A stretch of 64,000 nucleotides of DNA from Craspedostauros australis. Taxonomy: Eukaryota; Bacillariophyta; Bacillariophyceae; Mastogloiales; Achnanthaceae. How positions within the stretch are numbered: position 1 is the first letter of the stretch; the number at the start of each line of letters is the position of its first letter. Of this stretch, positions 13,915 to 54,086 are shown piece after piece. The notes beneath the pieces are model-generated. The model did no database searches. It was not told where the DNA came from and worked only from the letters and a program-made list of their open reading frames with translations. Where the stretch lies: NCBI GenBank assembly GCA_026770025.1, contig JAMXDE010000007.1:62001-126000 (forward strand), written 5' to 3'. The translations under genes and the position numbers were made by a program.

Positions 13915-14068
13915 ATCTGCGTGCTGAGCTGTGTTGCAAGCATCACCCATTCCACTCCGAAGCTGACTTTGCGCTACAGTGAAGCGCGTGCAAACCACAC
14001 CATCCACGCGAGAACAGCAGTGCAGCATCATCAGAACAGAGCAACAGCAGAAGCCGCGTCCGAGATCA

Positions 14069-14158
14069 AGTCACAGGGCATCACTCATCGCATCACTCAT
14101 CGCATCACCCATTGCATCACTCGTTGCATTACCCATTGCATCACCCGTTGCATCATTG
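14069..14158. repeat. CATCACTCATCG-type tandem repeat
   Basis: About seven imperfect 12-13-nt units of the form GCATCACTCATC or GCATCACCCATT, about 100 bp upstream of the chosen start of the homeodomain-PHD gene and probably in its 5' UTR. If translation began at 13979 this stretch would read as an Ile-Ala-Ser repeat (LIASLIASPIASL). Confidence 0.85.
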
Positions 14159-14260
14159 CGCCACTCCAACTGTGCCTGTCGTTGCTTGGTGGGAGAGCAG
14201 CGCAGGCATCATATCATCACTGCGCCAAACACACGTGAACTCACTCCACAAGCAACTGAG

Positions 14261-17200
14261 ATGGCAGAAGGAGAAATGGGCAATCAGGTCACTGCAAAGA
14301 CGCACAGGCCTGGGGAGGATCGCGCGAGGTCTCTTCAGGGATCGGCTGAGGCCACGAACAGCACCAGACGCGCCAACCAAGGCGGCGACATGAGCTTCCA
14401 TGCCGATACCAACGTTGCAGCACCTTTCGTCGCGGATATGGATGTGCTGGAACCAACGCCCATCGGATTGCCGGACGATGCTCTCAGCCCAAGGCCGTTG
14501 GCGCCTTCTGCAGTGGCCGCATCTGCGTCCGACAATATCATCGCTCATCTTGGCACTGCGTTGGGACAGACCCCCAGAACGGGGACATCCACGCGAGCAG
14601 CGCAAGGAGCAACCCCGTTGATTGCAGATCGAGGCCTCGCGATCATTTCCACCAGCGTTGCCTTGCCACCGGATGTGCCTGTTGCGTTGGCGGCGAGCGC
14701 GAACAGCACGAGCGTCAATGCTCGTGGCATGGATGTGTCATTTGCAGACTCCGATACTCTCAAGGCGACCGCCGTCGATCTTTTCCCGAAGGTGCTTCGT
14801 CGTGGACGAAAGTTTCAAAACACCTTTGGTCGGGCATCAAATGGAAGTGGTAGTGGAAGTGGCAGTGGTAGTGGTACCACTGCTGCAACTGCAGCCGGTG
14901 CTGACGCCGAGAATTGGACCGGTCACAGCAACGAGGGGTCATCGGCGATGATTCAAAGTGCTCAGTCGGCCTCCAGCTATTCGCAAGTGAACATGTTCGC
15001 ATCTCCGTCGTCGAGTTCTATCTCGAGATTCCAGAATGATTCTTCCTATAACCAAAACGCATCGTCGACGTCGCAGCTCATGACGGCGATGCAACAACCG
15101 CGATCGGATCCGTTGGGTTTCGCAACTCCGATCAGCAATGGCACCAGATCCTCCAGCGCGAAGACCAAAGGTCGGCCGTCCATGGGAATGAAAGATCTCA
15201 AGAAATTGGCAAAGGTTGTGCCACAGCATGCGCCAGAACCTTCCACGAACGCTGCTGCACAAGACAACCCGCTGGCGTTTGCCACCATATACGAGTCCAC
15301 CCCAACCAAGACGGGCATCAGCAGGAAGGCTCCGAGCAGTCAGCGCAGGGTTCCTGGCAGAGGTCGAGGGGCAGGTAAGGGAAGAGGCGCTGGAAAGACA
15401 CGCAAGACATCAGCCAAGACGAGAATCAACAGAACCAAATCGAGAAAGGCTACCGCAGCAGAGTCGTCATCGCCATTTCCCGGCGTGCCAACGTATACAT
15501 CGACTCCAACGCCAGCATCAACGAGATCGGCAGGAAAAGGAATTGGCACGCCGGCCTCGTCTACCTTCTCCTCGACCACTTTCTCCACACCGCTGCATGT
15601 CGACGCCTTGACCATGACGACACCAGTTTCCGCAAAGGCGCCACCAACGCAAACCAAGTCCAGGCGAATCACCAATAAATCCACAAAAGCAACCGGAGTG
15701 GCCGCATCGCGCAAATCAAAGACCAACTACAAAAAACGACAGCGGGTGGAAGTGCCATCCAGAGGGAGAGGTCGGCGCAAGGGTGCGCACGGCGCATCAA
15801 GTCGCAAGGCGCCTCCTCGATCATCCGGCCCTCCACTGCACATTGCTGATGAATTCCCGCAACGGCTTGTCAATCCACTCCTCGAGGCGCTTGTGCCTGG
15901 CGTGGAACCACCGACACGCAACGATCAACCCGTCATGGGTCCCGAACTGCTTGCCCCGACGCAGATTATTTTCTACGAACCCGACACGTATCCTATATCG
16001 TTCCTCGGTCGTCTCCTTGGCTTCGACATACCTATTCCTAGCCCAAAGTCCAGACCCCCCGTCTTCCCCACCACCATCGACGCCAACACGGTGCCCATGA
16101 TCCGCAATTCCTTGCCGGACCCAGCCCAGCATCTTCCGGCACCAGGCAAGCGCAGGTTGAACCGGATCAAGGTCAGTCCGCTCGGCGATGAAGACGACCA
16201 GACGATGCTCGATAGGCTGGACCCCGTGTACCGCCATTTCCTCGCCAACGGATTCGACCGTTCCACCATGAAATCGCCCATCTCGGCGCAAATGACTCAA
16301 TTCAACAAGCTGCTGGCCCAGCAGACTCGAAGCGGGATGTGGCGCACCATAGTCAGCAAAGCCAAGGAGTGCGTGCGAAACAAGAGCGATCTGGAGCATG
16401 TCGACTTCGTGGATTGGAACTCATTCGCTTCCAAAGCAGGCAAACAACGAACGCACTGGACCATCGGAAACAACCGCGTCTTCTCGAACCTCCCATCCTT
16501 CACATTCGGCGTGGTGGCATTGGATGCCAAGACGAAGCAACCGGCTGCCATGCTCACCTACTCGTTTCTTTGGGCTCAGATGCAACCGGACTTGCTGGGA
16601 CAAGTGGAATCCGAACTCGTGATGCTGATCAACGGTGTGGCATATCCCACAGATCGGCCCGTGACGCACAGAACTCAAATCTTTGATGGATCGCCTCCCA
16701 TTGCGCAGCGGTCGCAGATGCAGACGTCCAAATCGCCGGCCGCGACACAAACACCTACATCATCACCAGCGGCGGCAGAAGCGACGGAAGCGGGTAGAGG
16801 TCTTCGATCGAGCTCGTCCACCAAGTATGAGATCGAGGAAGAACCACCGAGGCGAACTGGGCTCACACGCGGCGCCGCTACCTCAACAACTTCCAACTCC
16901 ATTGGCAAAAGACGGTCGTCATCATCGACCACCAAAGGAGCACGGGTTTCTCCCTCGCGCAAAAAGAGTTGGCTGCCACAATCGACGGTGGACTATCTCA
17001 AGGCATGGATGCTGTCGCCAGAACACATCGATGAACCATACCCCAGCCCTGAGGAGAAGGCTCGCATCATGAAGGACACAGGCATCGGCAGCAGCAGATT
17101 ACGGAATTGGTTCGTCAACAACCGCAAACGCATCTGGAAGCCCTACGTCGATGCCATTGGTAGAGGCGAGGTTCCCACACCAGCATCGCCCTGCGACGAC

Positions 17201-20200
17201 GCCATGTCGCACGAGGACGTCATGGAGTTGGACGATATGGACACACCGTTCACAGACGACAACGACGACAAGGACTCCACCCTTGACGATGTGGCCGTGG
17301 ACCTTTCCGCAACTTCCCTCCTTCCGTCAAAAACCCAGAGTCTGCCGAGTTCCTCGGAATTGGATGCTAAACCATCCGCAACGGCAACGCCAGCAACACC
17401 GTCGGCAACAACAGCAACAGCCGCAGCAACGATACCAGCAACGACGACAGCCGTTGACGACAAGCTCCGAATAGCGACTCCTGTCAAATCGGAAGCACGC
17501 CACGATAAGTCTGCCAACAGTCCCAAATCTCCAGGGACACTGAAAACTATAAAATACTTGGAATGCACAATGGAGGAAACGTCGCAGATCGTTGGTTCGA
17601 TGGTGCAAGATGTGATCTTCGTCGAGCAGGTCGAAGAGGAGGACGAGGACGAGGAGGTGGTGAGACCACAATCCGCGATGGAAGTGGAGCCTGCCACCGC
17701 GCTGCGTGTAACCAACGAAGAACCGAAAATGGATGCGGTGAAATCGAGCGCGGAGCATGAGCATAAGAAGGACGATGGTGCGACAGCCACAAACCCCGCC
17801 ACATTGCCACCATCTACAGAAGACGTCCTCCCCAACAAAGACACAAACACAGGCGCAAAATCAACATATGCAATCGCTGCGAATGGTGAAACAACTACGA
17901 CCGCGACAGGTGACAAGACTGACAAGCAACCGGCTGATGCGCAACCAACTGATACAACGACTTCCATCGCAATCGAACGGCCCCGGCTGGAATCGCAGCA
18001 CTTGGAGATCACGGTCAACGACTCAGTATTGCTTGTGATGATAACCCTGGCCTTGGAGCATACGCGTGCCAACGATGTATGGTACGCCATGATTGAAGCC
18101 CCTCGAGACAAGCAGGAGATGTTGCAAAAGCACTTTCGCATGTCAAAGCTACCGTGCCTCCATGAACAGGCAGACGTTCCTCTCATTTGCGATCTAAAGA
18201 AATGCAGCTCCCGCTACACATTCCAAATGTGCAAGCATGTGAGCACTCCAATCACCAAAACCGTCGATGGTGGCGACCGGACCAACGGAAACGATGATAT
18301 CGAGGGCAGCGAGGACGCCAAGAATGGCAAAGATACTGGTGTCGAGCATGAGAGGCAGGAGGACGACGCCGAGATCCAGAGGCACGACCGCGTCATTGCG
18401 CGATTCCCAAACGTGGACACTGTTGGCAAGTACTTCGGTTTGAAATTGAAATCATCTTCGCGGAACAAGCACCTGCTCACGCGCAAGAAAGACAACAACT
18501 TCGCAAGTGCCCCAGTTGGAAATCAACGCACCGCCACTGCTGCGATACGTGCTACTGTTGGCAACGAGGAGGATGATATACCAAAGTTCTCCCTGCTTGC
18601 CCCTGATGGTCAGGAGGGTGAGTCATTTATCTTGCCTCCATCCAAGAAGGGGCATTTAGACCTCGATATTTTCAAGGTCTTTCCGCAAATAGAAGCCTCC
18701 GACCCTCCGGCAGCACCAGCAACGACGGATGGTAGCGACGTTGACGATCTCCTCGAGACATTGCTCGAAAAGCAAAAAATGCTGAAGGAGCTCGAAGACG
18801 GGTTGGAGCCAACGACGCGCAAGCTCTTCGCTCAGGCAATTCAGCTTCGACAAGATTTCGAAGGTCCCGAGGCGACCCAGCGACGGGCGCGCGAAAAGCG
18901 GTTGCTGATGGAAAACCAGCGAATTATCGAACGTCGCAAGGAGATGGACATCGCATGGCAGAAGCAGCTAGAGCAAGACATGGACGCGGTTTGCATGATC
19001 TGTGATGACGGCGAGGTGACTCCCGACAATCAGATTCTCTTCTGCGAGGCATGCAACGTCCCGGTGCACCAGTTCTGCTACGGCGTGGAAAAGATCCCCG
19101 AAGGTGATTACTACTGCGTGGCATGCAAGCACTTCAAACGGGAGAAGATGTCGCAGCTCATCGCGCGGAAGACGAAGCTCAACATCCTGCCACCGACGAA
19201 GATAACGCCCCCGCCGCTCCCGATCTGCTGTGAGCTGTGTCCAATCAAGCAGGGCGCCTTCATTCGCACCGACACGAAGAAAAAGATCAAGGCCAACGAC
19301 GGGACGGTGATCACGAAGTGGGTTCACAACGTTTGCGCCAAGTGGCAAGGCCTCAACTTCATCGAATCTGGGAATCCAGACATCGTGGAGGACGTTGCGG
19401 ACCTCAAGGTGTACTTCATGCGCCTGAACGTTCGCTGTTTCATCTGCAAGGGGCAGAGAGGGGCGTATCAGAAGTGCCGCTTCGAAGGATGCAAGAATTA
19501 CTGCCACGTCACGTGTGCTCGACTGTCCGGGGTTTGCGAGGTGATCCACGGCGAGAACTACGAAGGCCCGGTCGCCGACAATCCCTGGACTCTCCTTTGC
19601 CCTGAGCATTCCAACGTCGACCCGGAGACACGCAAACGAGATCCCGTTCCCATCGAAGATCTGATCAAGGCCTCGCAGCAATTCCCTCCAGAACCCAAGC
19701 CGGCCCCACTGCCACTGCCCCCAAAGCAGTTCAACAAACTCAATGGAAAGGAACGCCGACAATATCTCGCCAATCGGGACTACGAGAAAACATTCTACAA
19801 AGATATCCTTACTCGTCGACTGGCAGGCATGCGTTGCGAGGTTTGCGATGAGGTGGAAGAGGACGGACGAGGCCTTAGCCGGTGCGTGCGTTGTCACGCC
19901 GTGAGCTGCGTTGCCTGCATGCTGCCGCAGACCGAAGAATTTGAGCGCAGCATCGTGTGCGTCAAATGCCAATACGTCGACAAGAAATTGGGCGAACGGA
20001 AAGCAAGTAAGGACAGAATCACCGCTTACGACAAAAAGGAGGGCAAAGCAGGCAAACAGAAAAGCGACGGGAAGGGCAAAAAGTTTGTCACACCCAAATG
20101 TAATATCTGCCTTCAAGCCGGTGGCTGGTTGCTGGAAGCATTCGCCAAGCCCGTCAACCGACAAAACTACTGGAAGAAGGCTCACAATGAATTCAAAAGG

Positions 20201-23200
20201 ACTCTCTTCGCACAAGATCTGTGGTGTCACGCCGCATGCGCGTAGTAAGTTGGATCGGTCAGCGTGTGTGCGATGCCTGTGCGTATGGATATCCTACGTA
20301 GTGTGGCTCAGCGAGATGCTATTGATTTATCGTGTGCAATTGAACATGTCGGAGATCCCCATCGTTGCTCTTGCTCGCCATTCATCTCACTCTTGTCAAT
20401 TTTTTCCGTCGTTTTCCATCGCTTTCGTTGCCGTTGTTGCGATTACCTCGCACTCATGTTTATTTGTTTTGCTTTTGCGTCCGCCTGCATTGCGTCGTGT
20501 CACGTCTCTGCGTGCAGTTGGCATCGAGATCTAATCGTCGACCAAAGGACGGGGAAGGTGGACTGTGCTAACGTCATCATGTCGAATGGCAGAGGACACG
20601 TCCTCTCGCAACGGAGGTGTGGTCTGTGCGGCATGACCAATGGGCTGAAACTCAAGTGCACTGCCGACGACTGCCGAGCATGGGGCAACAAGCGAATGCC
20701 ATGGGTGTTTCACATTACTTGCGCTCGGCAGGCGGGATATGAAACCAATCATAATGACGAGCTGGAGCATCCTTTCTATCGTAAGTGTGTGGAAGGAAAT
20801 CACCGCGATGTTTGCAGCTGTTGCGCCGGCCTTGCTAGTTTTGACAACATGATTCGCCATCTTACGAATGCTCTCCAACTGGATATCCAACGACGAACTC
20901 AACTGTCTTGCGGATCACTTTTGCTCACCCACTTTGCCCCACCCCTCATGTCTCATCTGTCTGCTGTTTGTATGATACTCGTACTCGCGCCCGGAATCGC
21001 GCTCGTAGTGAGGTGCCACGACCATGGAGGCAACAACTACAACCTCCGAGCCAGATTGGAAGATCTGATCGAAATCGAACGCAGACGAGCGAAGAAGAAC
21101 TTCTCGGCGGCGGATGGGCCCATGCCGTTCGCCCATGCCTCGCGGCTGCTGAATCAGGCCATAAATGTAATGAAGACGCTTGGTTGGGCCTGGCGATGGG
21201 CAGAGTCCTGGGTGGCCAATGGATCATCCTGGGAGCCGCTGCTGGAACCTGGACAGACGGAGTCCAACATGACCAAGGAGGAACTTGGCATCATCGACAG
21301 CACCCCCGAGAGTCGATGCGAAGATGCCAGACGCTGCAGGCTTGCAGCGTTCGGAGCGGCCCTGCGCAATCGCGATTACGACGACGAGGATGAATTCAAG
21401 GAACGGGAGCTGAAGAGAGCACTACGTGCCCTCCTTCATACCCAAAGCCTCGTGGGACCTCTCAAGGACTTTGAGATCAAGTTCTTCATGCAATGGCTCT
21501 GCTTGGCGTACCGTTCTAAGTCTCGCTTGCTTGGTTTTGGAGACGACAAAATTCCTGTGTGGGATGGTGGATTCTGTCTACATGTCGACGACAAGACACG
21601 GAAGTTCGAATTGGGATCGAGGCCGCTCCCAGGCTTGCACAAGCAAACCGACGAGTCGAGGATTTTCGAAGTGGGAGTGATTGAACCCGACGACTTTCTC
21701 AAACCGGAGCTTGACAGCAATGGTATACCAATAGTTCTTCCCGAGCTTCCGGAGCGCAAGCTAAAATCCGGTAGGGCGAGACGGAGACGAAGGAGCAAAT
21801 CCACGATCGATCAGAAGATGGCAACAGACACACCTGAACCGTCCGAACATGGCGATTATGATGATGACAGTGGCGACTGTACAGTTTCAGAGGAGAAGCG
21901 TGCCCTGGGCCACCAAGTCGCCCTTGATCATGCAGAAGATGACGTTTCCAATCACGCTGCGCCATCGGCTGAAGCAGAACAACGCGGGCAACAGCATGGG
22001 CATCAACATGAATATACTATGCCAGACGATGAAGAGACACCAAAATCAAAGAAAGCAGCAGAGAAGAGCAGGTCCAAGTCAAAGAAGAAACAGCAGAAAC
22101 AGAGCCGAAGGACGACCGCGGGGAAGTCGCCAGCGATTGCACTGCGCGATTTGCCGGCGGATGAGTACGCCGGTCCAACACTCCAGAATAGACCATTCCT
22201 GCAAGCCATAGTCCATGCACCACGACAGAAGAAGAAGGGGCCACGTTCGAGGCACGTCAAGTTTGTCACAACTGAATTCAGAATCGTCGTCATGATCAAT
22301 GATACACCAGAACGCTACGAATCGTTTTTCGAAGAAGCGTACCCAGATGGTGTAGTTCTGGAGGATGAAGAAGATGGTGCCAACGCAGGTATGGGCGCAG
22401 CGACTGATCCGGGCGTGCCTGATGCAGTAATAACACCCACACGGAGAAGCAGAAGGACAAGGACGAGAAGAAGCGTGCAGCAGGTTGAACAGAGCCTTGT
22501 CGCTGATGAGAACGGAAGCGCTTCGGCTTATCCTCCGCATGATGCTTCCATGAAGGTCCACACGGAGGCGATTGGCGCTGGTCGAGGTTCTCATCGAAAG
22601 GATCGAACCTTCTCGCCGAGGGCAATGGCTGTGGATCTTGCAAACAGTAAAGACCTGAAGGTGGCGACGAAGGCAAGGCTTGGAACAGATCAGCTTGGGG
22701 ACCCCATTGAAACCCCTGCAACTTCAACGCCGAAGTCCGCTGGAGATGAATCACCGAAGACGCCTGACATACAAATCGTGAAATCCCCTTTCTTGGTGCG
22801 CTCATTGCAAAGGAAACGCAAATACGAGGAGGCTGGAATGCTTGCCGATGGGGAGGGCAAGAAGTACCGCTCACGAAGGAGGCTGAGAACTCTGTTCGTG
22901 GAATCCACCTCTGTCCAACCAGAGGAAATGGATGAGGGATCTCGGCATGGTGATGGAAGCTCTCTGCTCTCTGACGATGAGAATGACGTGCAACAGCCCA
23001 CGCAACGCGCGAAGAAAGCATCAAAGGGCAAGAGCAAGAAGAGATCAAAGAAATCGAAGAAACCAAAAACAAGTTCCGCGGTACGGGATGCACAGCATGC
23101 GTTGGAGGAGGCTGAGCCAGCTGCGAGCAACAAGAAGTTGACACAATATGCCTCGATCGAATTCGGTGGAAGAAGACCCCGATTGCGCAACGTGAGCTAC

Positions 23201-28131: not shown

Positions 28132-30440
28132 TTACGCCACCAATTCCTTTGCTCGCAAGAACTCCGTGCGTTCCTGCTTGGTCGTCGCCATCCACTTTGC
28201 AATCGATTCGGCAACCAGCGACGGCACTTCATCATGCGGACAGTGTCCCGCCTGCAACGGGTCAATCGTGATGCCAGCTCGAAGCTTGCCCAGATCTTCG
28301 CACCGTGCCTTGGCGTCATTCAAAGGATCCAACACGCCTTGCGGCATCAGCACCGGCCCCTCAAACGTCGACTGCAAAGGCCCCTCGCTGCGTTGCATCA
28401 GCAGCTCATTGTACGGACGCGACGGTGGCAACTTGGTGCCCGAAATCATGACATTGATGGCACCGGGATCCAGCGAATCTCTCAGGATGTTTTGGCACAA
28501 GACCGTATCGACGGCCGCAGGATTGGTGGGATACAGATTGACGCAGATGGATTGGATGCGTGGGCGCAAGTAGGCCAAGATGGCGTTGCCCAACAGTCTT
28601 GCCAATGGCGGTGGGCTGTGGAGAGCATGATGAATTGGTGAGTGAGTGAATAGGTGAATGAGTAAGTGTTGGGAGGCAGCGAGTGAGAAAATGTTGGGAG
28701 ATCATCATACCAATAGTATCAAAGAACATTGAGCAACGCAAGATATATGACGCACAAGACCACGTGTACGTACCGCAACGGATCCAACTGACCGGCAATC
28801 GTCTTCTCCGCCGTCGTGACTTGCGTCGCAGCCGCTTCGGCCTGGTCTTGAATGATGCCGGCCGGATTCATGAGGATCACACCTGAGCATTGGCCCGTGC
28901 CGGGTCCACCCGATGCACTGAGCGTGTTCGACGTGACTGTGGCATCGTTGGCACCGGCGCACATGGCCGTGAATCCGCCGATGGAGTTGCCGCCGATGAC
29001 GACATTGCTGTTGACAACCAACTCCTGCAGGAAATCTCCAATCTGACATTCCCACGTGTATCCCGAGTACGTGATGGCTGGCTTTTCGCTGTGTCCGAAA
29101 CCCAACAAGTCGGGGGCGTAGCACGTGATGTCGTCGTTGTCGCTTCGCAATTCTTCAATGGTCTTGGCCCATTGCGTGCCAGATGCGCCGAATCCATGCA
29201 CAAAGAGGATGGCATCGTCGTCGTCTTCCGTGGGTGTCGTCATGGCGTACCGACAAAGAAATCCATGCCATCGCGTGTACTTGTACTGGAGGTCCTGCGA
29301 TGCCGTGCTCTCAGCTGTCTCCTTCATGCATTGGGCCGCGAACAATCGATGCCATTCCTGCCCTTCCAAGAAGGTGTGGATGGGATTGGTGAAGAACCGA
29401 TCCTTGTTGGCCTCAATCGACTTGGCGATGCGCCGTGGTGAGATGGTGCCAAAGAGCAGCGGAGCGGCCAGGTATCGAATCAGAAGCTCGCCCTCCAGGA
29501 GGTTGTTGACGTTGTCGGGCTGGAAATCCATGTTCCACTTCATCGTGGCATGCTCCAAACTGTTGGGATTGGTTTGAATGGTGGGAAGGTACTTGGCAAA
29601 TGCGGCATCCTGCTGATCGCAAACATCGACGTAGGTCTCGAGGAACCGATGGACGGTGCTTTCGCGGATACTGGAGGCGTCCATGCCACCCCAATGTGTG
29701 CCGTACAATCCCGTGTTGGTTTGGGCCTCGCATTGCTCGTCATCGAGCTGCAGCAACGATTGCACGCGCTTTGTGAACTGCTCCAAATCGAGCGGCGCAC
29801 CAGCCTCGAGCTCCAGGTTGGACGTCACGGACGACACCTCGACCGGCGCGTTGAGCTCCTGCGCGAACGTCTTTGCATACTCCGGATACATTGCGGGCAA
29901 CGCCCCGACGGCGTTCCACGGCGCGTCGCGCAGACGACACGACCACGGCACGACATCCAATCGCGATGATACGAGATCGCTGTAGGCGCCATACCCCATC
30001 GCGTTGTCGGCCGGACCCAAATCGCAGACATGCAGAGATCCCTCGATATCCGCCAACGCCTCGGCCTGCGTGATGACCTGCAATTCCAAATCATGCTGCT
30101 GCTTCAACGCGTCACGCAGACTTTCGACGGCATGATACAGCATGCGCGTCGTTTCGATGGGATGGGCGCGCATGCCCGGAATGTTGCGCAGCGTCCGGTC
30201 GTCGAGCACGACGAGGGGCAGGACGTTGGCATTCTGCGAGGCTCGGCGCAGTCCTTCGTGGTCGTCGACGCGCAAATCGCCGACACCGAAGAGGACGACA
30301 TCGGCGGTTGCCGACAAGGCCGTCGAGCGCACGTGGGGAAGCGGCGTCGTGAAGGCGTGCGCCGCTGGAAGCAGAGCGAGGACGCAGCTGATCGACAGCA
30401 ACATCGTTGGCGTTGGGATCCACATTGTGGTCGATTCCAA
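28132..30440 (-). CDS. Plastid-targeted photolyase-like / alpha-beta hydrolase fusion
   Basis: Two exons, complement(28132-28615, 28774-30440), 716 residues; 158-nt intron. The N terminus is a signal peptide (LLSISCVLALLPAAHA) followed by Phe-Thr-Thr-Pro, a plastid ASAFAP-type motif. Residues about 45-200 resemble the Rossmann-like N-terminal domain of DNA photolyases/cryptochromes (DVVLFGVGDLRVDDHEGL, VLPLVVLDDR). A helical middle section (about 200-400) looks too short and diverged for a full FAD-binding domain. The rest is an alpha/beta hydrolase: oxyanion VHGFGASG near 414, nucleophile Ser486 in GNSIGG, and the catalytic His expected at about 680 in GHCPHDEVP, on exon 2. The same architecture is, to my knowledge, found in a plant protein annotated as photolyase (Arabidopsis AT4G25290). 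DNA-repair activity is doubtful; a plastid esterase role is inferred. Confidence 0.88.
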
Positions 30441-30548
30441 AATTATGATGACGAGGATGTTGTGCCAACGAAAACAACGTCACAAAACGAAACGAATGAG
30501 GTGTTCACCAACTCATGACTAAACTAGGTACTCGTGACTCGCTTTATG

Positions 30549-35479: not shown

Positions 35480-38263
35480 ATGAGACTACCGATCACCGTC
35501 CTCTCGTTGCAGCTCCTCCTCAGCTCCGTTGCTGCTGCTGCACCGCAACGCACCCCACGGAAGCTTCGTGTGCGTCAAAGGAATCGCAAACTCGTGAAGC
35601 AAAGCAAAGACTGGTTCAACGATCCAGACTCGGATACGCCGGGGCCCGATGGAAAGGAAGAGCTTGATAGCGAAGAAGGCGATGGCGTTATCGCCTTCAT
35701 CGTGGGTGGTGAAGATGCGACGGAGGGAGATTATCCCTACTTTGGTACGTCCTCTGATTGACTGGTGATGTGATGGTGGATGCAGCACAGCACAATACAA
35801 TACAACACAATATCACACAACGGAGTCCGATGTGGCGCTTTCCAGAATCATTCCTACCTCACACCATCTTTCTCTTATTATATGTACACAATGCACACTG
35901 TTGACACTGACCGGCCATGCACGGCACCGTTTTTCTCGTCCCTGCACCCGGCATCGCAGTGGACTGGGGCGGATGCGGTGCGACTCTGATTTATAATGAC
36001 ATCGCCCTCACATCGGCACACGTAAGTACATCGAGCGTTGTGTAGGAATCATCGCGGAGGTGCTGATGTGTTAGATGATTATCTGGACGCCATGCGACAA
36101 CATGCTGCTATCGCTCACGTGGGTGGATTTGGTGGGATTTCTGTTTCTCACTCCCTCTACCAAACTCGTTCCTTTTGTTCTCGACTTGTGATTGTCTTCA
36201 CTCGCCAAACTCCACATCTGGGGCACTCAATGCACACTTCATGCACAGTGGTAAGTCTCAACAAACGCAGACGGTTGCTGGTGAGATGTTGGCGTTGTCA
36301 TCACGTGCGCAATAAGGAGCCTTCCGCTTCTTCTGCCATTACTCGCACAGCCAACCAACCAACTAACCAATTCATCCATTCATTCTGTCGTCATCTTGCA
36401 GCTACAAAACGAACGGGCGTGGCAACGCGTTGGTGGGAGCCTTTGATAAGACCTCAAGCGTCTCCGGCTCCATGTATTCCAAAGTCACGAAGATGATCCC
36501 GCATGAGGAATACGACCGCGCTCAGCGGAACAACGACGTCATGGTCTTGAAGTTGGGAGGATGGGTACGTGCTGTGTGATCATGGTGGCGGTTCAACCGC
36601 TGCCATGCATGTAATGAGAACTTCACTTGCGGAGCGCAATACGCAGCACCAAAGCAAGTCAATCGCATGTGACAGAGTTCCTCCTCCTCCTCCACACTCT
36701 CTTGCAAACTTTCTCACAAACACTGTCTCGCTTTTGTCTGTCTGCATCTCTCACACTCACTCCATTCCCACCCAAACACTCACAGTACGAAAAGGAACTT
36801 GCGGATTTAGATGATGGGAGCATCACCTTGCAGAAAGATGACGCCCTCACAATTGCAGGCTTTGGCCGAACCAGCGAAAGGGGGAAGAAATCCAAAATCC
36901 TGCAAGAGGCTGAAGTGAAATACTACACGAGGAAGGAATGCAGCGATATCTACGGCGGCTACTACAACGGCACCACGATGATCTGCGCTTCCGATGACGG
37001 TGTCGATAGCTGCAAGGGTGATTCCGGTGGCCCGATGCTGCGAGACACGAGAATCGGCACCTTTCAAGTTGGTGTCGTGTCATGGGTAAGTACCATACAG
37101 GCATTGCGAAGGCGATGAAAAGGCAATGCAATGGGGTATCCATCGCTTCGATGGATACGCTTGAGAAGGAAGATGCCATTGGCCGGCATCTGATAGGATT
37201 AGATCGCATCAAATCAAGTCAAATCACCTCACATCTCACACCATGATTTCATCACAACAATCCATTCGTCCTGTCACGTCCCCCTTCCCAACATCATTCA
37301 ACTCTTCGACCACAGGGAGTCGGTTGTGCCCGTGCTGCATATCCTGGTGTGTACGCACGTGTGAGCACCTACTATTCATGGATCCAGGACCAAATCTGCG
37401 CTCTATCCGACAACCCACCACTATCATGCAATGAACCGGAAGAGGTGCTGAAGGAACGACTTGATAACACAACTCAAACGAACACCACGAACACCACAGA
37501 TGTGCTATCCAATGTCACCGAAGTCGTCAATGTGACAGATACGACCAACGTCACAGACACTTTCAACACCACAGACACTTTCAACACTACAGATACATCA
37601 AACACTACAGATACATCAAACACAACGAACGCAACAGCAGAAGAGGAGAATTCCACCACTACGGAAACAACGGAGGATCCACCGGAAGAAGTTGTGGTGC
37701 TGCATCGCTTGCGCATTGACGTGTTGCACGATGAGTACCCGGAGGATACTGGCTGGGTCATCCGAGATGGGTCCAACAACGTCGTAGTCGAGAAGAAAGT
37801 GGGCACGGTCCCACCGTCCGAAGCGAAAACTTTCCTCTCAGAATACGTCGAACTGCTGCCTGGCAACTACAAATTCGTCTTCCTCGACGAGTACGGTGAT
37901 GGTCTGACTGTGGGGCTACAAGGTACGAACGAAGAAGCAGGCAACCAACACATCAGATCTGCTCTCATGATGCTGCTGCTGTTCCTGTGCGATGCATGCA
38001 ACGATCCATCTCACACTTGCGTACTCCTTCACATGCCATTCGTTTTGCTTTTCTTGTCAATGGATCAACATCTCTGCCTCTCGCCACCCCTCTTTCCATC
38101 TGCTCTAATATAATATGATCGACACCGAACCATCCTCGCAGGCTTCTACAACATGTACGAACTCTCCGACACCGGTCCTGACAGATTATTGGCCAGCGGC
38201 GGACCAAAACTCAAGAAATCAATACGGGAGGGCACCCGGTTCTGCCTTGGCAAAGATTGCTAA
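35480..38263 (+). CDS. Secreted trypsin-like serine protease (S1 family), seven exons
   Basis: Inferred exons: 35480-35744, 35960-36021, 36249-36250, 36402-36564, 36786-37085, 37316-37922 and 38142-38263, giving 506 residues. A signal peptide (about 1-20, ending in an Ala run) and a basic propeptide precede the mature start IVGG at 74-77. The catalytic triad reads His109 (TSAHC), Asp155 (NNDVMVLKL) and Ser244 (KGDSGGP). Asp238, six residues before the serine, predicts trypsin-like cleavage after Lys/Arg. The Cys of TSAHC is encoded by a 2-nt exon plus one base of the next exon. After the protease domain come a Thr/Asn-rich segment with tandem NTT sequons and a C-terminal beta-rich domain of about 120 residues ending CLGKDC. 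Introns are 215, 227, 151, 221, 230 and 219 nt, all GT-AG. Expected to be extracellular or lysosomal/vacuolar. Confidence 0.9.
36249..36250 (+). other. Putative 2-nt microexon (TG)
   Basis: The dinucleotide TG sits between CACAG and GTAAGT, a perfect acceptor and donor. Exon 2 ends in phase 0 after the codon for the catalytic His, and the next exon starts with C. Inserting TG yields a Cys codon and the invariant trypsin AHC motif, and keeps the downstream frame. No other AG lies close enough upstream to make a longer exon plausible. Confidence 0.72.
37536..37640 (+). repeat. Tandem NTTDT-coding repeat
   Basis: Degenerate 18-nt units within the protease gene encoding FNTTDT/SNTTDT. Each unit contains an N-x-T glycosylation sequon. 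Confidence 0.85.
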
Positions 38264-47915: not shown

Positions 47916-50900
47916 TCACTCGAATGTTCTCGATGTGTCAAGGTACGACTTCTCATGTTCACGTTGTAAGTCGGCCTTGATGTTCTTGGTGAATCCGTCG
48001 CTTGTGTTCTGCTCGGATTTGATGAAAATGATTTCGATGGTTTTGTTGATTACCATATTCCTCACGTAGTGATGGCGCACGTCGATGTGCCGCGATCGTT
48101 GGGATGTTGATGGGTTCTTGGCGATGAAGATCGCCCCGATGTTGTCCACGCGGACCTTGATCGGTGTCTTCACTGGGACGCCCACACTTTCGAGTAGCTG
48201 CACAACGAAGAAGATCTCCTTTGCCGCTTCGGAAAGGGCAACGTATTCTGCTTCGGATGAGCTGAGTGTGACGGCCTTCTGTGCCTTGGATCGCCAAAGG
48301 ATTGGTACCTTGCACAGGTATAGGATGAATCCCCCTACGCTGATTCTTGTGTTCTTGTCTCCTGCATATTCGCTATCGCAGAAGAGTTCCATGTCCCAGC
48401 CGTCGTCATCTGGACGCGCTGGATGGATCTTCAATCCATAGTCCTTTGTATCGATCACATACTTGATGATCCGATACATCTCCTTCATTGCGGCCTTGGT
48501 GGGCCCGATCAATACCTTGGAGAGTTCCCTCACAGGGTTCGCGATATCTGGTCGCGAGTGCTTGATGAGGAAGAGTAGCATACCGACGCCTCGGCGGTAT
48601 TCGGCATGTTCTTCCGGTCTGACCTTCTGCAGTCCGTTATCTTTGGATGGTCGTACGATGATTTGACCCGGGGTTCCCGGTGTCCCATAACGTTGCATCT
48701 TCTCAACCTTGGCTCCGAACTCTTCGATGAGGTGTCGGATGAGATGTGGTTGACGCAATGTCGCTCTAGTCTTGTCATGGTTCAATTCGATGTTGCAGCT
48801 GAGGTAGTCTCCGAGTCCGCGCTCGATTGTCACCTTGAACTTGCTGCCTTGGATGTCCTTCAGGAATGTCTCCAGTGCCTTGGAGTCTCCGCAACAGAAG
48901 CAATCGTCCACGTAGATGGCCACGATCATGCTTCCTTCGTTCGTCTTCCTGTAGAACAGGCACGGGTCTGCTGCGCTCTGTTCGAAGTTGATATTCTTGA
49001 GGGTCGATACCAACATCTTGAACCATTGCCTGGCGCTCTGCACAAGTCCGTAAATTGGCTTGTGTAGGGTCAGGGCTTCGTCTGGTTGATGATCCATCCC
49101 GTTGGGACAGTTCATGTAGATCTCCTCGTCGAGGTCTCCATGTAGGAATGCCGTTACGACATCGACGAGTGCGCAGTCCATCTTCTTGATTAGCATGATC
49201 ACTATCATGACCCGATAGGTCACGTCATGGATGACGGGTGAGTAATGCTCTTGGAAGTCTACTCCTGCGACTTGTGAATAGCCACATGCAACGAGCCGCG
49301 CTCGATGTGTGCCGTCACGCTTCAACTTGAAGACCCATTTGCACTTGCAGCATCTGCGGCCGCGTGGAATGGCGTCTCGTTTGATCTTACTGTATACCTT
49401 GCGTGTATCCATGGAGTCGAACTCTTTCTTGATGGCTGCTCGATATCCCTTCCGATGGATAGGATCTGGGTGATTGAAGGCTCCATCGAATGTTGTAGGT
49501 TCGATGTGCTTCTCTGGTTCCTTGTTCTCGTCTTGCATCGACAATCCGATGTCGATCGCTGGTCTCTCGGTGATGATTGCATTCATTCCGTATAGTCCTG
49601 TTGTGCTATAGTGAGTGATCTCGATCTCTTCATCTTCGTCTTCGATTTCTTCGTCATCTGTAGTTTCGTTGTTGGAATCGTCGATCATCTCGTCGCTGAG
49701 TTCGTCACTCGCCTCACTGGATGATGGATCGCTCTCATAGCCTTCTTCCTTTCGACCTCGTTCGTTGAAGTCTGCGAGCTCACGCAGAGCTCTGGGAATA
49801 CTCTTCCCTGCAGTTGACTTGGGATTAGCTTCTCCCTTCCTGCCTCGTGCTTCATGACGTCGGATCCTCTCCTTTCTAGCCATGTCACGCTTGTTTGGTT
49901 TGGTTGGTGGAGGTCTCGATGGTGTGTCATGTGTAGACCTCGCTGGTGTGTTCGGAGGAGTGACGCCTGTCTCGTCGTCGGCTTCGTTGCCGGAGGGTAG
50001 GATTTCGTCATCCTCATGATTGGATTCGTTCCGATCTTTCTCGTCATTCTGGATTAGTTGAGTCACTACTCCGTCGTCCTCATTATCCTCGTCATCACTG
50101 TCTGATAGGATGTAGTACCTGTTGCTGTCAGCGAAAGATACTCTCTTCGCTTCCGATGTTTGACGCGTTGCCGTCCTTGGCGTTGCTCCCTTCCGTCCGA
50201 TGGTTGTGAAGCCGTCTGCGTCCGTTGTTCCTGTTTCGTTGGATATGTTCGGTGCTGGTGCCCAGCCACGGAACTGTCCATATGATTGGTTGAGCCATTT
50301 GATGTCTCGTGAACAGATGAGTGACTTGGTCGATGGTCTATACATGTTGTAGACCCCTGATGCATGTTGGTGTGCATATCCAATGAACACCATCTCTTCT
50401 CCTCTGTTCTTGAGTTTGGCGGTAATCCCGCCGTAGGTAGTCTTCACAACACCCACCTCTCCAAACGTGCGTAGTGCATCCGCATATGATGGATCGTTGC
50501 CGAAGAATTGTCGATGTGGTGACTCCTTTTGGTTCTTCGCTACGGTGATGTTGGCGATGGCGGTGGCAGTGCTAGCAGCTGCTGCCCACAGGCCATGCCT
50601 ATACTCTTCGTCGAGCTGTGCTCCGTTGAGCATGGAGCGAATCTTGGTGTAGAGGTACGCGAACTTGCGTTCCACTCTTCCGTTCTGTTGCGGCATGTTC
50701 GATGCCGTGTATTCGAATTTCACGTTGAGTCCTGCATCGATGAGAATATCCTCCGTGGATTTGTTCTCTCCGCTGTTGTCACCTCGGAAGATGATCTGTT
50801 GGTCACCAGTCTGTGACTTGATCGTCTGGATGAATCGTTTGATGTATCCTGGTTGATCACTCTTGTTCTTGAGAAAGAAACTCCAGCAGTGATCCGTGCA

Positions 50901-53900
50901 GTCGTCCACGATCAGGGTCCAGTAGCGTTTATCTCCGAAGCTTATGTGTTTAGTGTAACTAATGTCAATGAAGAACCGTTCGCCGCGGCGAGTAGCTCTT
51001 GGAATAGTTGCCTTCGGAATATTCTTCACTCTTGCGTTCGCGACCGCGCAGTCACGACACACCGGCGTCTCGCCGATGATTTTCCATCCGTACTGAGCGG
51101 CCGTCCGCTTCATGGTCTCGAGTGGCGCGTGGCCGAGCATTCGGTGCAGGTTCACCGCGCTGATCTCCTTGGATGGATTCTTGACGATAGCTGTACAAGC
51201 TTTGTCATCGTCTGTTGGCATGATGGGATGCATCTGCACTCCCGTGATGAATCCGTTGGATGTGGGGAAGACTCGATCGAACACGATCTTCGTTCCGGAT
51301 CCGTTGATGATGTCCATCAGAATGCTGTTGTTACCAAGCTGGTAACCGTTGTACAGAGCCTTGTTCGTGGAGAAAAGGTTCACCGCCATCTTGGGTGTGT
51401 ACTTCACATCATCGAGCCGGATGACGTGGCCAGTGTTGTCTCGCTGTTTGACTTTCAAGCGAATGGATCCCATCTTGGGAGAGTCCAGCTTCGTGCTGTC
51501 TCCCACTTGGACGAAGGACTTGATATGCCGTACGTTGAAGAGAGCGGCGTCCGAGTTGACGATGTGACACGAAGCTCCGCTATCGGCGAGCCAGGTGTCT
51601 TTGTTAACCTTGTCCTTGTACTTGGTGCTCAGTTCGTGGAGTTGCTCCACAGCTGCCGCAGCTATCTCGTCGTCGAAGCTGCCGTCGTCGTTGTCTTCGT
51701 GGACTCCATCTTCGTTGTATGGATGATGATGGTCTCCGTCATCCATGTCGTCGGGTAGTTGCGCGTAGTCCGATGGAATCGTAGTGTTCCGATGAAATCC
51801 TGTGGCTGGATCGTATGGATGGACCCGTGGTCGTTCGCGTAAGAGTACGCGCATACATCCTCCAAGGATGTAATGAAGATCCGTCTCTGGGATTGTCTCT
51901 GTCTCGGCTGCTTCTAGTATGCGATTGATCACAACTGAATTGGCGAGAATCTCTTCAATCGATCTGAAGTTCTCGGATAGGATGGATCCCATCATGTTGA
52001 CCCATATCGGTCTGAGTACTCCTCGTTCGATTCCTGGGAATAGGCTCACTCCTGCTTCCATCACTGCATCGAAGATGAGTTGCTTCTGGATCACCAATGC
52101 TGTCTCTGTTGCATATGGGATGGTGTCATGACGATGGAGGTAGTTGGATCTGTTGGGATCCTCGATTGGTGGGAAGTCAATATTCCCTGGGTATACGACA
52201 CGCTCGTTTGGATTGAAGCTGTCGTCTGGATGATTGCCGTCCTCGGATTCGTCGCTGTCATCCTCGTCGAAGATGCCCGATCTGTTGTTCCCCGCCGCTG
52301 GAGGAGGAGGCGCCGCGCCGCGGTCCGCCTCATCGTCTTCATCTGCGCCGTCCTCGTCGGCGTTGTCGTCGTCATCGCTCATGGCCTCTTCGATGTCACT
52401 ATCGTTGGCCTCGTCGTCCATCTCAGCTTCGTCGCCGTATGGACCGATCAGGTCGTGCGCGTTGAAGCAGCATTCGTAGCTCACTTCGCGTCTTGGATCC
52501 ACCTCGTGGATGATTGGCTCCTCGCTGAGCCACTCCGGGATGATCTCATCATCCTGTACTTCGTCGTCACTCCCGACGTATTCGAAGTTATCGAAGAAGG
52601 AGTCTTCGATGTAGTCGTCGGACACCAACATGCAGAGCGGCATGTCCTTTGCAGAGAGTACCATCTCGTGCCCGCTCTTGTCGTGTCCTTGCGTTGCTGT
52701 GTTGGCCTGTTCGTCGGCCTTCTTCTTTTCGTTGAACTTCTTCTTTCGGCACTCCGCCTCGCGATGTCCGAAGATGCCGCAGTAGTTGCACTTGCCCTTG
52801 AAGCCGCTTCCCTTGTTGCGCTTTCCGTTCATCTTGTTGTTGTTGTTGTTGTTTTTCTTGTTGTTCGGTTTCTTGCGTTCTGGGCAATCGGCGGATCTAT
52901 GGCCATACACGCCACAGTTGTGGCAAGTACCCTTGAAGTTACCGGTGCTTGTGAAGCCGGTGTCGTTGCTCTTCGTGTTGCTGTCTTGGAAGTCGTCGAC
53001 GTATGCCTTGCCTCCTCTGTGGGTGGCGTATGCAGTACGGAGTACTCCTCTAATCGCGTTGATGGTAACCAGTTCCGGATTGAACGTGAGTTGGTGTTGG
53101 AAGTTCACGACGTGGGTTTTGTATTCCACGCTCACCGTGCTGAGGATTTGCATGATCATTTCCTCGTCTGTGATCTCGTACTTGACATCGTGGAGATGCG
53201 ATCGTAGACTCTCAAGTTGCGTGATGTAAATATCGGGGTCCGTGTCTCTCTTCATCTTTTCGTTGTTGAATTGGCGCTTGAGTTTGATCTTCGTCACCGC
53301 ATCGGATGGTCGGAACTTCTCCGCGAGAACGTTCCACGCTCCGTGTGCGTCTCCTTCGGGGTAGTCGACGGAGATGCATTGGTTGATGTACTGGATAGCC
53401 TGCTTGCCCTTTCCTTTCTCTGCATCCATCATGAGGATCAGATCGCTGAAGCAGTCGCATCCCAGCTCGTAGATCTCCTCCATCGCTTCCTTGTCTTCAT
53501 CGGCGGCTGCCGCGATCTCGCTCACTGTTGGCACCTTGGTCTTGCCCAACATCACGTCTCTCGTCTTCTGTGCACGAGCGTATGCCTTCGCTTGGGACTC
53601 CCATGCGCTGTAGTCTTCCTGTTCACCGCTGAACATCGGCGCCTTGATGCGTCGCTTGTTCACGTTGGCTGATGTCGCCATGTTGATTCGTTGTTTCGTC
53701 GTTGGTGCGCTCGCGCCCTTGATTTCCGTCTGTTTCTGTGTTGTCGATTCTTCGATTTTCGCCTGTTGTTGCGCGGAGATTGTTTTCGTCACAAATTCTC
53801 CTCCTGGTGGTGTCTCACTTTTCCCACCCTGTTTGGCTGTGCGAATGCTCTTCGTCACACCAGTCTCCTCTTGCTTGATCGCCTTGAGAATCCTCTTCTC

Positions 53901-54086
53901 CTTACGATGTAGTCTTGCAGACCGTTCTTCTTCGGTCTCGTCGATCGCGCTTGCGTCTGCGCTTGATAGGACAGTAGCCACGGCTGCTTCCTTCTCTTGT
54001 CGTGGTGGAGTCTCACTCGCACCTTCTTCTCTCTTGATAGTCGGATTGGACAGAGGGATCTCTTTCAATTCCTCTTCCTCGCTCAT
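47916..54086 (-). CDS. Copia Gag-Pol polyprotein, intact (2,056 codons)
   Basis: One open frame encodes all replication functions. The N-terminal 100 residues are charged. A UBN2-type Gag domain lies at about 145-345, followed by two CCHC knuckles at 388-401 (CHNCGVYGHRSADC) and 433-446 (CNYCGIFGHREAEC). A very acidic linker and an unrecognised region of about 380 residues follow. The aspartic protease motif LADSGASCH is near 833, the integrase HHCC zinc motif at about 986-1020, and the DDE core follows (FIDISYTKH; IVDDCTDH). After a disordered acidic/basic linker (about 1250-1510) come the reverse transcriptase, with YVDD at 1725-1728, and RNase H, with FCDSEYAGD around Asp1904 and SSSEAEYVAL. 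No frameshift separates Gag from Pol. All signature catalytic residues inspected are present, so this copy may be competent. Confidence 0.95.
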   Translation of the reverse strand: MSEEEELKEIPLSNPTIKREEGASETPPRQEKEAAVATVLSSADASAIDETEEERSARLHRKEKRILKAIKQEETGVTKSIRTAKQGGKSETPPGGEFVTKTISAQQQAKIEESTTQKQTEIKGASAPTTKQRINMATSANVNKRRIKAPMFSGEQEDYSAWESQAKAYARAQKTRDVMLGKTKVPTVSEIAAAADEDKEAMEEIYELGCDCFSDLILMMDAEKGKGKQAIQYINQCISVDYPEGDAHGAWNVLAEKFRPSDAVTKIKLKRQFNNEKMKRDTDPDIYITQLESLRSHLHDVKYEITDEEMIMQILSTVSVEYKTHVVNFQHQLTFNPELVTINAIRGVLRTAYATHRGGKAYVDDFQDSNTKSNDTGFTSTGNFKGTCHNCGVYGHRSADCPERKKPNNKKNNNNNNKMNGKRNKGSGFKGKCNYCGIFGHREAECRKKKFNEKKKADEQANTATQGHDKSGHEMVLSAKDMPLCMLVSDDYIEDSFFDNFEYVGSDDEVQDDEIIPEWLSEEPIIHEVDPRREVSYECCFNAHDLIGPYGDEAEMDDEANDSDIEEAMSDDDDNADEDGADEDDEADRGAAPPPPAAGNNRSGIFDEDDSDESEDGNHPDDSFNPNERVVYPGNIDFPPIEDPNRSNYLHRHDTIPYATETALVIQKQLIFDAVMEAGVSLFPGIERGVLRPIWVNMMGSILSENFRSIEEILANSVVINRILEAAETETIPETDLHYILGGCMRVLLRERPRVHPYDPATGFHRNTTIPSDYAQLPDDMDDGDHHHPYNEDGVHEDNDDGSFDDEIAAAAVEQLHELSTKYKDKVNKDTWLADSGASCHIVNSDAALFNVRHIKSFVQVGDSTKLDSPKMGSIRLKVKQRDNTGHVIRLDDVKYTPKMAVNLFSTNKALYNGYQLGNNSILMDIINGSGTKIVFDRVFPTSNGFITGVQMHPIMPTDDDKACTAIVKNPSKEISAVNLHRMLGHAPLETMKRTAAQYGWKIIGETPVCRDCAVANARVKNIPKATIPRATRRGERFFIDISYTKHISFGDKRYWTLIVDDCTDHCWSFFLKNKSDQPGYIKRFIQTIKSQTGDQQIIFRGDNSGENKSTEDILIDAGLNVKFEYTASNMPQQNGRVERKFAYLYTKIRSMLNGAQLDEEYRHGLWAAAASTATAIANITVAKNQKESPHRQFFGNDPSYADALRTFGEVGVVKTTYGGITAKLKNRGEEMVFIGYAHQHASGVYNMYRPSTKSLICSRDIKWLNQSYGQFRGWAPAPNISNETGTTDADGFTTIGRKGATPRTATRQTSEAKRVSFADSNRYYILSDSDDEDNEDDGVVTQLIQNDEKDRNESNHEDDEILPSGNEADDETGVTPPNTPARSTHDTPSRPPPTKPNKRDMARKERIRRHEARGRKGEANPKSTAGKSIPRALRELADFNERGRKEEGYESDPSSSEASDELSDEMIDDSNNETTDDEEIEDEDEEIEITHYSTTGLYGMNAIITERPAIDIGLSMQDENKEPEKHIEPTTFDGAFNHPDPIHRKGYRAAIKKEFDSMDTRKVYSKIKRDAIPRGRRCCKCKWVFKLKRDGTHRARLVACGYSQVAGVDFQEHYSPVIHDVTYRVMIVIMLIKKMDCALVDVVTAFLHGDLDEEIYMNCPNGMDHQPDEALTLHKPIYGLVQSARQWFKMLVSTLKNINFEQSAADPCLFYRKTNEGSMIVAIYVDDCFCCGDSKALETFLKDIQGSKFKVTIERGLGDYLSCNIELNHDKTRATLRQPHLIRHLIEEFGAKVEKMQRYGTPGTPGQIIVRPSKDNGLQKVRPEEHAEYRRGVGMLLFLIKHSRPDIANPVRELSKVLIGPTKAAMKEMYRIIKYVIDTKDYGLKIHPARPDDDGWDMELFCDSEYAGDKNTRISVGGFILYLCKVPILWRSKAQKAVTLSSSEAEYVALSEAAKEIFFVVQLLESVGVPVKTPIKVRVDNIGAIFIAKNPSTSQRSRHIDVRHHYVRNMVINKTIEIIFIKSEQNTSDGFTKNIKADLQREHEKSYLDTSRTFE

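Follow-up and report, generated by a model that had tools for sequence, protein, structure and literature searches.

A putative two-nucleotide exon between two introns at the active site of a trypsin-like protease gene in the diatom Craspedostauros australis

The trypsin-like gene and its surroundings

A trypsin-like gene lies at 35480-38263 on the + strand of the window, the 64,000-nt stretch of Craspedostauros australis contig JAMXDE010000007.1 analyzed here, to which all coordinates refer; the host genome comprises 74.8 Mb in 90 contigs. The gene was modeled as seven exons that join into an open frame of 506 aa, provided that an exon consisting of the two nucleotides TG is included (Table 1).

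Table 1. Predicted exons of the trypsin-like gene and the two putative introns on either side of TG (window coordinates)
Feature	Position	Strand	Content	Basis
Exon 1	35480..35744	+	Start codon, hydrophobic N-terminus, propeptide, IVGGEDATEGDYPYF	Joined open frame
Exon 2	35960..36021	+	VDWGGCGATLIYNDIALTSAH; ends with the catalytic His codon, phase 0	
Intron A (putative)	36022..36248	+	227 nt, GTAAGT...CAG	
Two-nucleotide exon TG (putative)	36249..36250	+	Bases 1 and 2 of the AHC Cys codon	
Intron B' (putative)	36251..36401	+	151 nt, GTAAGT...CAG, phase 2	
Exon 4	36402..36564	+	Third base of the Cys codon, YKTNGRGNALVGAFDK...NNDVMVLKLGGW, region of the catalytic Asp	
Exon 5	36786..37085	+	GDSGGP including the catalytic Ser	
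Exon 6	37316..37922	+	Remainder of the trypsin domain, linker rich in NTT, C-terminal part	
Exon 7	38142..38263	+	Rest of the C-terminal region, stop codon	

The TG-containing protein matches the complete Pfam Trypsin model (PF00089; model positions 1-220 of 220, residues 74-287, E = 1.7e-42). Alignment with the solved trypsins 5dk1 and 5dj7 starts at IVGG, extends over nearly the whole domain and keeps the register at AHC, in the Asp region and at GDSGGP. The predicted product can thus be assigned to the S1A trypsin-like serine proteases by its complete domain, by the aligned His, Asp and Ser residues, which we take to be the catalytic ones, and by the Cys that follows the His, although the presence of this Cys depends on the inclusion of TG. 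Judged by eye, the N-terminus encoded by exon 1 looks like a signal peptide, and the protease is probably secreted. A profile search of the 506-aa protein gave no Pfam match for the C-terminal region of exon 6.

Elsewhere in the window, a Copia-type retrotransposon frame of 2056 aa from stop to stop (47916-54086, - strand) matches gag, a zinc knuckle and reverse transcriptase, and in a single frame at 28719-30479 (- strand) a match to alpha/beta hydrolase comes after a weak one to DNA photolyase (E = 4.3e-6). A 2092-aa frame at 13967-20245 (+ strand) has a homeobox KN match, with PHD-type zinc-finger matches further along.

The phase gap after the histidine codon

Exon 2 ends, as the original prediction had proposed, exactly after the His codon (...ACATCGGCACAC/GTAAGT, with GCA CAC as the last codons, up to 36021; slashes mark exon-intron junctions), and the next long exon does open with C TAC AAA, at 36402 (...ATCTTGCAG/CTACAAAAC). 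The gap between them (36022-36401) is 380 nt long, and two bases are missing after exon 2: joining 36021 directly to 36402 shifts the frame and leads to a stop 14 residues past the His, in agreement with the expectation that the frame would be lost without two additional bases. Inside the gap, the context CATGCACAG/TG/GTAAGTCTC contains CAG/TG/GTAAGT at 36246-36256. AG precedes and GT follows the two bases, as at a microexon, and the two splice sites that had been pointed out in CACAG-TG-GTAAGT lie exactly at these coordinates. TG would satisfy the need for both the frame and a conserved residue, which is what characterizes an ultra-short microexon (1 to 3 nt).

Within the gap, 17 exons bounded by AG and GT have a length of 2 modulo 3 and no stop (GC donors were left out of this list), and a Cys codon comes first in one of the 17, namely, TG. 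Single introns were enumerated as pairs of a GT after 35970-36299 and an AG approximately 40 bases or more downstream, up to 36499; 12 of the 293 pairs leave the frame open, and none of the 12 places a Cys after the His. The claim that TG rescues both the Cys and the frame is borne out by these counts. Several candidates were rejected. Acceptors at 36046, 36256, 36271 and 36286 are in phase with donor 36021 and run into stops, while the acceptor at 36451 with the same donor loses 49 nt and has a score of -6.2. A zero-length recursive splice site (ratchet point) was also dismissed, as two bases stand between AG and GT and the product needs both.

Splice sites were scored with a position weight matrix built from seven introns, four of this gene (including the intron that follows exon 1, with a donor, TTG/GTACGT, scoring 10.2) and three of paralogues, with introns A and B' excluded. 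Among the donors of the gap, 36021 (8.6) ranks first and 36250 (7.7) second; among the acceptors, 36249 (7.0) ranks first and 36402 (5.5) second, so that the four sites of the model take the top two ranks in each class and the two highest belong to intron A. The third and fourth acceptors, 36351 (5.0) and 36271 (4.9), are close behind 36402, and the matrix is derived from few introns. On the + strand of the whole window, the score of donor 36250 is equaled or exceeded at 23 of 3,747 GT sites, and that of acceptor 36249 at 62 of 3,689 AG sites. The sequence, frame and site ranks described here, like the paralogue sequences described below, are direct observations.

Frame-keeping splicing that omits the Cys is possible on paper. 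A single intron of this kind would most likely run from a donor at 36041 (GTTGT/GTAGGA) to 36402 and give AH-VSTSSVV-YKTNG. The frame of this join is open and its score sum (10.4) is the highest of the 12 open single-intron pairs; the next two, 36025 with 36485 (10.1) and 36021 with 36493 (8.9), leave out 83 and 91 nt, respectively, at the start of exon 4, and the open pairs other than 36041 with 36402 are weaker rivals of the same kind. However, donor 36041 has a score of 4.9, compared with 8.6 for 36021, which lies 20 nt upstream, and its use would make CAG-TG-GTAAGT a coincidence. The Cys of the AHC motif is normally disulphide-paired, and in the product of donor 36041 its usual partner would stay unpaired.

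The likelihood of such a coincidence was estimated from 20,000 dinucleotide shuffles of the gap interior. CAG-TG-GTAAGT arose in none of them and YAG-TG-GTRAGT in 0.01%; AG-TG-GT alone was found in 6.9%. A frame-restoring exon of <90 nt with a Cys codon first, bounded by relaxed sites (YAG and GTRNG[TA]), was found in 1.65%. Genome-wide, on both strands, YAGTGGTAAGT occurs 12 times, versus 105 for the reversed control, and YAGNNGTAAGT 292 times, versus 2,394. By arithmetic from the genome counts, approximately 3e-5 and 7e-4 occurrences, respectively, are expected on one strand of a 380-nt gap. With reversal as the only control for composition, YAGNNGTAAGT is approximately eight times rarer than its control, as though the genome disfavored such acceptor-donor pairs; among the places listed for this pattern, seven lie in one short stretch of contig 8.

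Introns at the AHC motif in paralogues

The comparison set consisted of paralogues in the same genome, which contains 42 trypsin-matched stretches. Besides the window gene and locus L039, 21 paralogue loci, a part of these matches, were passed to alignment (20 were included and the 21st was dropped as a duplicate). In all 21, Cys directly follows His and the motif is uninterrupted by an intron. The residue missing from the product of donor 36041 is present in every one of these loci, and we regard a single intron that omits the Cys, from that donor or another, as quite improbable.

Three further paralogues have an intron at or near the AHC motif. In L039 (contig 22), which has a tail rich in proline and threonine, ...VLTAAH/GTAAGT is followed, after 426 nt, by TTTTACAG/TGC AAT GTC. 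This single intron is in phase 0 immediately after the His, as is intron A, and the whole Cys codon lies downstream of it (ACAG/TGC). In L055 (contig 20, 908200-909700) and L056 (contig 19, 102600-104600), GTAAGT follows AHC plus two bases, and acceptors 365 and 346 nt downstream, respectively, preserve a trypsin-like frame. These acceptors were picked from six and seven listed open ones, respectively, by site and by likeness to trypsin, and a phase-2 intron at this place is likely in both loci, one codon downstream of intron B'. L055 and L056 come from 10 weak trypsin regions, in two of which a search pattern recognized the motif; the other eight were left out. Single introns at or near the motif thus range from 346 to 426 nt in paralogues; although 380 nt is long beside the 215 to 230 nt of introns in the same gene, gap length was for this reason dropped as evidence for two introns.

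The tree places L039 as sister to the window gene, with a support of 0.77 and long branches, and common descent of their phase-0 intron is therefore likely but not secure. The window gene would have the intron of L039 and, two bases later, an intron that shares the phase of the one in L055 and L056; the simplest reading is that both are present and TG is an exon. Frame, Cys, site rank and paralogues all support the prediction of a two-nucleotide exon that carries bases of the AHC Cys codon.

The pre-mRNA would accordingly hold two GT-AG introns separated by TG alone. An AG and a GT only two bases apart could hardly be bound simultaneously, which suggests that the introns are removed in sequence; once either one is excised, the other would be an ordinary intron. 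The product, CAC-TG-C, would encode the His-Cys of TSAHC and keep the 397 residues after the His in frame. How this gene and its paralogues are spliced, in which order the introns leave and how the arrangement evolved are points that we infer. On these grounds, TG probably lies between two nearly coincident introns removed stepwise by ordinary GT-AG splicing, and we consider it very likely that it is a two-base exon which originated from adjoining introns. Stepwise removal of the introns around a tiny exon also agrees with the discussion in PMC4674806.

The gap could also mark a decaying gene copy, in which the frame is truly broken and TG is coincidental. The trypsin family is large, and one of its copies (contig 7, 649030) has an in-frame TGA. 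The remaining exons of the window gene are, however, open and in phase over 506 aa with a complete trypsin domain, and CAG-TG-GTAAGT is absent from the shuffles; decay is highly improbable. Hardly credible at all is a single intron at 36022-36396 with a non-AG 3' end, CT, for although TGC AGC TAC can be read in frame from just upstream of 36402 through that position (giving AHCSYKTNG) and the loop length would then equal that of the L011-L017 group, both judged by eye, the site has no AG and a score of -4.1, the 3' end is CAG in nine of nine introns of the family models, including A and B', and we know of no established class of CT-ending introns.

For the two-base exon and its flanking introns, the most likely origin is that a phase-0 intron after the His, as in L039, and a phase-2 intron in or beside the Cys codon became neighbors. 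This could have happened by one of two routes. (i) A second intron may have been gained two bases into an exon opening with TGC. (ii) Two introns of the family may have stood five bases apart, and the codon between them may have been lost. By eye, the window gene has one residue fewer in the loop that follows the Cys than the L011-L017 group has; this counts against the two-base exon as such and fits the loss of a codon, but it proves little, since loop lengths vary. The fuller proposal, that TG is a constitutive exon of a diatom nuclear gene, formed when two introns of the family, in phase 0 after the His and in phase 2 approximately one codon later, met in the same gene, possibly as a former 5-nt exon lost a codon, is advanced tentatively, as an account that may well prove wrong. 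If it is true, the paralogues with each intron singly would document a concrete route to the smallest exons.

A search of the genome with the 151 nt of intron B' returned its own place only, and an introner-like origin of this intron was rejected on that result. Introns A and B' align locally no better than shuffled sequences do (score of 10.0, with a shuffle mean of 10.35). By contrast, five of 11 intron pairs outscore the majority of 300 simple shuffles (shuffle fraction of ≤0.06; the lowest, 0.007, is for intron 3 with B'), which is taken to reflect composition and simple repeats.

Known ultra-short exons and amplified gene families

The original prediction had also held that exons of one or two bases lie near the lower limit of splicing and have few documented examples. 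Such exons are indeed rare, but their scarcity was overstated. One-base exons are described in APC11 of Arabidopsis (PMC4674806), in VPS55 of plants (PMC8831610) and in the CYP621A P450 genes of Fusarium, for which 20 orthologues and 18 reads are given (PMC12940212). Read aligners may overlook exons as short as 1 nt (PMC8831610). Two-base exons are described in human GRK6, in a minor transcript, and in SEPT7 (PMC9929638). Earlier work cited in PMC12940212 reports exons of 2 to 5 bp in Arabidopsis, Drosophila and human.

These cases allow some comparison with the window gene. As in APC11 and VPS55, an ultra-short exon essential for the frame would stand between an AG and a strong GT; unlike the plant exons, which have one base and are verified by RNA (PMC4674806 and PMC8831610), the putative TG exon has two bases and is predicted from sequence. 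A 2-nt version of the APC11 exon, with TT in place of the single base, was spliced correctly in Arabidopsis but mis-spliced in rice (PMC4674806), and the latter result counts against the two-base reading. The CYP621A genes share out-of-phase exons, a motif that is rebuilt (PKG there and AHC here) and an intronless relative that serves as a length marker; they differ in being documented by 20 orthologues and by reads, whereas the present case consists of one gene and its paralogues. The origin proposed for CYP621A is the rescue of a lost base by a cryptic exon, while the paralogues of the window gene suggest neighboring introns (PMC12940212). The exons of GRK6 and SEPT7 have the same size as TG, and strong enough flanking sites permit their inclusion, but these are human genes and the GRK6 exon is confined to a minor transcript. 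Human MPC1 minigenes still underwent splicing with exons trimmed to 2, 1 and 0 bp, and the individual introns gave lariats of their own (PMC9929638); this agrees with the stepwise removal proposed here.

A phrase search of the literature for two-base exons gave nothing further that was related, nor did a passage in PMC8042270. The literature searched, with most subscription papers outside its scope, gave no report of microexons in diatoms. The predicted TG exon joins the exons of 1 or 2 nt already known, and the comparison of introns in L039, L055 and L056 is the new part. If TG is spliced in, diatoms would join plants, Fusarium and human as users of such exons. In that case, annotation software with no means of placing a 2-nt exon would yield a truncated or distorted protein, with the loss of its active site. 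From paralogues with each intron singly, the formation of such an exon may be traceable.

Two families of the genome show further features. Eleven of the trypsin loci (L011-L018, L020, L021 and L023, on contigs 7, 17, 39, 53, 70 and 72) form two close groups in which the domain is intron-free, whereas the window gene, L039, L055 and L056 have introns, and it looks as though an intron-free copy was amplified recently across contigs. The silicon transporter family has 88 matched stretches (best E = 4.2e-249; e.g., L065, contig 11, 710408-712021), more than expected for one diatom genome; the same profile gave one match, below the cutoff, in 14 named control genomes. Together with the tail of L039, this family points to a diatom as the source. 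Thirty-two of the 88 stretches score >760 bits, and 4 of these 32 have an internal stop.
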